This document shows positions 29,619-51,109 of a stretch of DNA of 64,000 bases, in pieces. Made by a program: the position numbers and the translations under genes. Position 1 is the stretch's first letter. Every line of letters starts with the position of its first letter. Below the pieces are notes generated by a model. It did no database searches and had not been told where the DNA came from. It saw only the letters and a list, made by a program, of their open reading frames with translations. Source of the DNA: Thermococcus sibiricus MM 739 (GTDB lineage Archaea > Methanobacteriota_B > Thermococci > Thermococcales > Thermococcaceae); assembly GCF_000022545.1 (NCBI RefSeq), contig NC_012883.1, positions 1,542,276 to 1,606,275 on the forward strand, given 5' to 3'.

Positions 29619-29677
29619 GAGGGTCAGACCATGCGAGTCTCCTCATATTTCAGACGAAATCTCCCTCATCATCCCTA
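29619..29677 (-). ncRNA. C/D box guide sRNA
   Basis: Reading the reverse strand: box C ATGATGA (29672-29666), a 12-base guide, box D-prime CTGA (29653-29650), a 3-base spacer, box C-prime ATGAGGA (29646-29640), a 12-base guide, and box D CTGA (29627-29624). GGG directly before C pairs with CCC directly after D, giving the kink-turn stem. The D guide GACTCGCATGGT is complementary to CCATGCGAGTC, a conserved stretch near the 5' end of archaeal 16S rRNA. The fifth base from D would place 2'-O-methylation on the U of CCAUG. The symmetric spacing and matching target make chance unlikely. Confidence 0.85.
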
Positions 29678-29697
29678 CAAAGAATAAAGAAAAGAGC

Positions 29698-30037
29698 TTA
29701 TAAATCTTCCTCAAACAACAAAAGTTCCGCAAATTTTTGTTTATAGGCTAAAACTTCCTCTATTTGTTTTTCATCTACTATGTCAGATAGGCTGATCTGC
29801 TTATAGAGTGCTTCAAGCTCTTTTAGTACTCTTTCCACCTGCATCCTTGCATCTCCGTAACTTCCGTTAGATTTCGGTATCCTGCTCAAAAGTTTGCCAC
29901 TCAGAAACGGCAACACTTCAAACGGTCTGCCCATATAGGCCCAATATATTCCTTCTCTTAAAATTTCACCTAAAATTTCGATTTCAGAATAGTTTATTTT
30001 CTTTCCTTTATTAATTGGTTTCCCACTCCCTCCTCAT
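29698..30037 (-). pseudogene. Small protein gene, apparently frameshifted near its 5' end
   Basis: A 78-codon frame starts with ATG 29934, but the same frame stays open and protein-like upstream (KINYSEIEILGEILREGIYW, then WAYMGRPFEV), with no start codon of its own. ATG 30037 with GGTGAT five bases before it begins MRREWETN in a frame offset by one and stops after 8 codons. A single indel between 30000 and 30030 would join them into a protein of about 110 residues ending VLAYKQKFAELLLFEEDL. I do not recognise the family; it is charged and helical. Confidence 0.5.
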
Positions 30038-44170: not shown

Positions 44171-44495
44171 GGTGAGGGAGCTGGGGCTGTCGGGTGTTAA
44201 AACCCGAGGAAGTTCCGCCCACCACACCGGAACGTGGTGCCGCAAGGCACCTCCTGAAAGGGAGGGCAACGGCGCAGAAACGACACGTCCTCTCACGTAT
44301 GAGAATGAAGGCGGAGAAAGGAACTCGTAAGAGTTCCCGAGATAACCCGCCGACGACTTGAGAGGGAACGGTGAAACGGCCGCCCCACGTGGTGCAAGGC
44401 CGAGAAAGGGGCGATGAGTTCCCGGTGGGAGTCCCGTGGTAGGCTGCTCAGTCGAATGCCCCAGAGTACAGAAGGCGGGCTATAGCTCCCTCACC
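44171..44495 (+). ncRNA. rnpB: RNase P RNA (archaeal type A)
   Basis: The universally conserved regions are present: GAGGAAGTTCCGCCC near 44206, the P10/11-like CAACGGCGCAGAAACGACAC, the GGTGAAACGGCCGCCCC region, AGTTCCCGGTGGGAGT, and the 3' conserved ACAGAAGGCGGGCTATAG. The ends GGTGAGGGAGCT (44171-44182) and AGCTCCCTCACC pair as the long P1 helix. It is the catalytic RNA for 5' maturation of tRNA. The 3' strand of P1 overlaps the last five bases of the convergent DMT permease gene. Confidence 0.95.
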
Positions 44496-51043: not shown

Positions 51044-51109
51044 CGGCATCAGGTCGTGGGCGTATCTTCATCGCAATACTCAGTGGAGGTGCTTTCTCCT
51101 CATCTGCCA
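51044..51109 (-). ncRNA. Candidate C/D box guide sRNA
   Basis: In the gap between two convergent methyltransferase genes the reverse strand has box C ATGAGGA (51103-51097), 13 bases, box D-prime CTGA (51083-51080), 8 bases, box C-prime ATGAAGA (51071-51065), 12 bases (TACGCCCACGAC), and box D CTGA (51052-51049). GGCA before C faces TGCC after D as the terminal stem, with one extra G. Box C and C-prime each deviate by one base from RTGATGA. I could not place the guide targets in rRNA from memory. Confidence 0.5.

Follow-up and report, generated by a model that had tools for sequence, protein, structure and literature searches.

A Thermococcaceae-wide C/D box sRNA with predicted guides to U52 and A356 of 16S rRNA

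The sRNA and its surroundings

The stretch of the Thermococcus sibiricus MM 739 genome analyzed here (NC_012883.1, positions 1,542,276 to 1,606,275; 64,000 nucleotides, hereafter the window) holds on its minus strand a short RNA element of the C/D box class, and its parts are collected in Table 1 together with the promoter-like sequences on both sides. Read along the minus strand, the element runs GGG-ATGATGA-GGGAGATTTCGT-CTGA-AAT-ATGAGGA-GACTCGCATGGT-CTGA-CCC, with a C-to-D core at 29624-29672, two guides of 12 nt each, and an AAT spacer between D' and C'. Its C and C' boxes are RUGAUGA-like, its D and D' boxes are CUGA-like, and all four lie at canonical spacing. An earlier sequence-only reading had proposed a C/D box guide sRNA at this place with C-12-D'-3-C'-12-D spacing and GGG/CCC ends; spacing and ends are exactly those of the minus-strand sequence, and the proposed identity is supported by the boxes, the spacing, the conservation, and the complementarity to rRNA described below.

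Table 1. Position of the sRNA, its parts, and the adjoining promoter-like elements in the window
Feature	Position	Strand	Remarks
C/D box sRNA, core and GGG/CCC terminal stem	29621..29675	-	boxes, motif search, profile, alignment
C box ATGATGA	29666..29672	-	ATGATGA in 84/86 loci, ATGATGT in 2
D' guide GGGAGATTTCGT	29654..29665	-	proposed target 16S nt 353-362, one A.C mismatch, +5 = A356
D' box CTGA	29650..29653	-	CNGA in 86/86 loci: CCGA 74, CTGA 7, CAGA 5
C' box ATGAGGA	29640..29646	-	RTGANGA in 85/86 loci
D guide GACTCGCATGGT	29628..29639	-	predicted target 16S nt 48-59, +5 = U52
D box CTGA	29624..29627	-	85/85 complete loci; 1 of 86 cut by contig end
TATA-like element TTTATAAG	29697..29704	-	-29..-22 from GGG; A/T 98-100% of 86 loci at -28..-26
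Purine-rich BRE-like stretch	29705-29712	-	just upstream of TTTATAAG
BRE/TATA-like element CGAAAGTTTTATAA	29606..29619	-	sequence reading only; directly after sRNA

The arrangement of the boxes is not one that arises readily by chance. A strict C-D'-C'-D regular expression matched once in the window when both strands were scanned and gave no match in 300 first-order Markov resamplings of the window, and a looser expression matched twice against 0.01 expected per 64 kb. The second loose match (51049-51103) overlaps a match to Rfam RF01128; a second C/D box sRNA lies there at 51047-51107 (-), where this family (model sR43, described as sR42) scores 71.2 bits. The window also carries an archaeal RNase P RNA gene at 44172-44494 (+), with 218.2 bits.

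No family of Rfam 15 reached its gathering score at the sRNA, either in the window or in the loci of six relatives, and the sRNA is thus not a member of a named Rfam sR family by that cut-off. When the scan was made permissive (E up to 10), 16 archaeal C/D families overlapped it on the minus strand, all of them below threshold, as did two eukaryotic C/D families, and the top score was that of sR12 (25.9 bits against a cut-off of 38). Such sub-threshold overlap with many archaeal C/D families indicates that the sRNA belongs to the class and not to a family catalogued in Rfam. With the sR families of Pyrococcus and Thermococcus (snoPyro_CD RF00095, sR12 RF01147, and others) it shares the boxes, the 12-nt guides, the 3-nt D'-C' spacer, the short terminal stem, and the targeting of rRNA, whereas the guides themselves differ.

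Over 86 related loci, A/T content reaches 98-100% at -28 to -26 from the GGG against about 20% at -21 to -19, and -28 to -26 is where an archaeal TATA box would be expected. The sRNA would probably be transcribed from a promoter of its own. A review (PMC7994747) reports such a motif for only about 20% of the archaeal C/D sRNA genes studied. In the window the TATA-like element overlaps the stop codon of a 78-aa ORF (29698-29934, -), which lies upstream of the sRNA in the same orientation. This ORF, which matched no Pfam family, is a more conserved neighbor of the sRNA than the genes downstream, a relative of it lying adjacent upstream in 69 of the 86 loci. On the other side, CGAAAGTTTTATAA may serve the zinc-ribbon (PF07754) and EF-1 guanine-exchange-domain (PF00736, aEF1-beta) genes that follow as a promoter of their own. 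Co-transcription of the sRNA with these genes, which had been suggested earlier, does not hold as a general feature: the pair lies downstream in only 17 of the 86 loci, although a few could be missed in a count from loci that hold about 1.5 kb per side and are sometimes cut by contig ends, and a TATA-like element precedes the sRNA over the 86 loci and, in the window, a candidate one precedes the genes. In one locus (L121, genome G077) about 880 additional bases, perhaps an insertion, lie between the sRNA and the zinc-ribbon gene and shift the latter from about +140 to +1020.

Conservation in Thermococcaceae

The sRNA is family-wide in Thermococcaceae, with one strong copy in most genomes. We found the exact pattern GACTCGCATGGNCTGA in 22 of the 94 family genomes, in 10 of 13 from the genus of the window, and in two (L004 and L005) of 80 named loci retrieved for aEF1-beta. 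From 17 copies we built a sequence profile (R1), which gave one strong match (49-71 bits) in 86 of the 94 genomes; the eight others comprise G050, which is 96% complete, and seven genomes that are at most 88% complete. A search of 115 genomes of the phylum at E <= 1e-4, 94 of them in the family, gave no match in the other 21. We aligned 89 loci, with the window standing for its own locus (L126), and dropped three weak ones (L220-L222, 17-21 bits), which resemble other sRNAs; 86 remained for counting.

Both boxes and guides are conserved in these relatives. Loss of the boxes in close relatives would have spoken against the earlier proposal; they are kept instead (C in 84/86, D in 85/85, D' in 86/86), and none of the 85 complete copies has an insertion or deletion from C to D, the remaining copy being truncated at a contig end. 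These counts are not independent of each other, since the copies are related. In G024, whose 16S coordinates are those that PMC9014305 gives for Thermococcus kodakarensis, the copy lies at 254602-254657 (+), between sR05 and sR13 of that paper, and it does not appear in the paper's Table 1, which covers circular RNAs; the 61 sRNAs of the paper are listed in its supplement.

Predicted targets in 16S rRNA

In the organism's own 16S, the D guide fits best at nt 48-59 (GCCAUGCGAGUC), where 11 Watson-Crick pairs form together with one G.U. The predicted duplex energy is -23.4 kcal/mol, and the score is 22.5, compared with 16.5 for the runner-up among the 16S and 23S loci scanned. The nucleotide singled out by the +5 rule is U52, in line with the sequence-only reading, which had put this target near the 5' end of 16S with the +5 position at a U. 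The core of the guide, CTCGCATGG, is present in all 85 complete copies, as is the A at its +5 position, and the target lies at nt 48 in 31/31 16S loci as well as in Pyrococcus abyssi (G004) and T. kodakarensis (G024). Sulfolobus sR1 presumably carries a D guide to 16S U52 too, and thus would share the target nucleotide. From the sequence of the guide, then, 2'-O-methylation of U52 is predicted. In the tables for the P. abyssi 30S (PMC7005279), no Um appears at nt 64, the paper's number for the nucleotide equivalent to U52. This is mild evidence against the prediction, and weak, because the map has a resolution of 3.2 Å and the only ribose methyls listed are Am373, Cm1376, and ac4Cm250.

The D' guide, for which the sequence-only reading had named no target, occurs in two forms, GGAGATTTCG in 29 copies and GGAAGTTTCG in 57, the latter count being equal to the number of genomes of genus g4 with a strong match. 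The only site in 16S and 23S at which both forms make 9 of 10 Watson-Crick pairs is 16S nt 353-362 (CGAAACCUCC), and each form leaves one A.C mismatch, at different places. Among 5000 shuffled guide pairs, 29 reached a match as good anywhere, and 4 did so within 16S nt 326-375. The +5 nucleotide of the guide is T in 86/86 copies and faces A356. Thus, both guides find a counterpart in the organism's rRNA, the check that the earlier reading had proposed: the D guide at U52 and the D' guide at A356, each with the +5 position paired, the latter with one mismatch. Both target sequences are present in 31/31 16S loci and in two more. A possible counterpart of A356 in yeast 18S is Am420 (snR52). Taken together, the sRNA is probably a double guide whose D' half points at 16S A356.

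A published methylation coincides with this site. The equivalent of A356 in P. abyssi is A361, and the D' site had been predicted before we matched the numbering of P. abyssi 16S to the table of PMC7005279. Offsets from -40 to +40 were tried, with the ac4C positions scored; at an offset of 12 (paper numbering = P. abyssi 16S + 12), 34 of 34 ac4C fall on the middle C of CCG, and the next best offset gives 5 of 34; this agreement also identifies genome G004 as P. abyssi. It follows that the published Am373 is A361, the nucleotide to which the D' guide's +5 position points. Thus, of the two predicted targets, the equivalent of A356 carries Am in the P. abyssi 30S, and the equivalent of U52 is not in the tables of that paper. 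In the paper Am373 carries the label 'hairpin loop: h13', with which the D' placement is not obviously consistent; the match rests on the numbering. We read the position of Am373 as coming from the map, with mass spectrometry showing that the modification is present (PMC7005279). A P. abyssi structure at 2.1 Å is available as PDB 9SRE (PMC13324472).

A search for ATGANGA-N4-10-TTTCGNCNGA in five genomes gave a single match in each, always at this sRNA, and a perfectly complementary guide, GGTTTCGNCTGA, stands beside CTGA in only one of six genomes, where no C/D boxes were seen around it. On these grounds we propose, for the box patterns searched, that the sRNA is the guide for Am373. In the passages of published work consulted, no guide is named for Am373, and no U52 guide appears for Thermococcales.

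Function of the sRNA

We consider an archaeal double-guide C/D box sRNA that directs 2'-O-methylation of 16S U52 and A356 to be the best explanation of the locus, with a probability of about 0.86. Such an sRNA, once transcribed, would be bound by L7Ae, Nop5, and fibrillarin; its D guide would then direct methylation of U52 and its D' guide that of A356. The Am of P. abyssi would, in this reading, owe its methyl group to this sRNA.

It is also possible that the two guides serve rRNA folding first, by clamping both sides of one helix during assembly, with methylation secondary. This role is compatible with the double-guide explanation, and we lean against it as the primary one without dismissing it. 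An archaeal 16S model places the U52-A348 pair within a helix of nt 48-50/349-351 and 52-54/346-348. The 5' strand of this helix is spanned in full by the D duplex, and the Watson-Crick D' duplex starts at nt 353, one nucleotide past the 3' strand. Since the two targets flank a single helix, the RNP may in addition clamp the rRNA as it folds. A chaperone role of this kind has been proposed for sR15 and sR17 of Nanoarchaeum equitans, in which sequence-distant sites meet in one 16S helix (Dennis et al., PMC4644070). There, likewise, two guides address 16S sites that are distant in sequence and neighbors in the fold; however, the N. equitans sites involve helices 28 and 30, whereas the helix here belongs to the 5' domain and has one guide on a strand and the other beyond the opposite strand. 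Table 3 of the same paper speaks against the idea in that it lists no pair near the U52 and A356 positions.

Carried further, the Thermococcaceae-wide double guide could, besides methylating U52 and A356, time closure of the 16S 5' domain by holding the sides of helix 48-54/346-351 apart, with the D' mismatch kept for release of the clamp. We regard this extension as speculative and rather doubtful. The A.C mismatch is present in 86/86 copies, two or three nt from the methylated position, in the state AG in 57 copies and GA in 29, and the perfect GG never occurs. However, with only two mismatch states, one evolutionary switch could explain the pattern, which makes the idea that selection keeps the mismatch a weak one.

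The imperfect fit of the D' guide to A356 also leaves room for a narrower reading, in which only the D guide acts, on U52, and the D' guide is structural or aimed at another RNA. Two rRNA sites come into question, and we keep them as rivals and not as main D' targets. At 23S nt 2041-2050 (CGAAAUUCCU) both forms make 9 of 10 pairs if G.U is allowed, but the duplex is weaker than at A356 (-10.4 against -13.0 kcal/mol). The site near nt 553 of 16S is predicted to be nearly as stable as A356 in this genome's 16S, both for the window guide (-12.6 against -13.0 kcal/mol) and for the P. abyssi guide (-11.7 against -11.9 kcal/mol). However, it is the equivalent of A356 that carries a published Am in P. 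abyssi (PMC7005279), and we judge a single acting guide to be improbable. Finally, the element could be a K-turn located in a 5' leader, where L7Ae would bind it and control the genes that follow, a possibility that Jager et al. raise for some predicted snoRNAs near transcript 5' ends. In place of a free guide RNA this is very improbable, since the sRNA and both guides are kept in 86 loci but the zinc-ribbon/aEF1-beta pair follows in few of them, and a separate TATA-like element stands between sRNA and gene in the window.

As a probable double guide, the sRNA adds to Thermococcaceae a family-wide member of an ordinary kind of RNA that has no Rfam family at threshold. It is the likely guide for Am373 of P. 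abyssi, a published methylation for which the text covered names none, and it predicts a second methylation, at U52, besides that published site.
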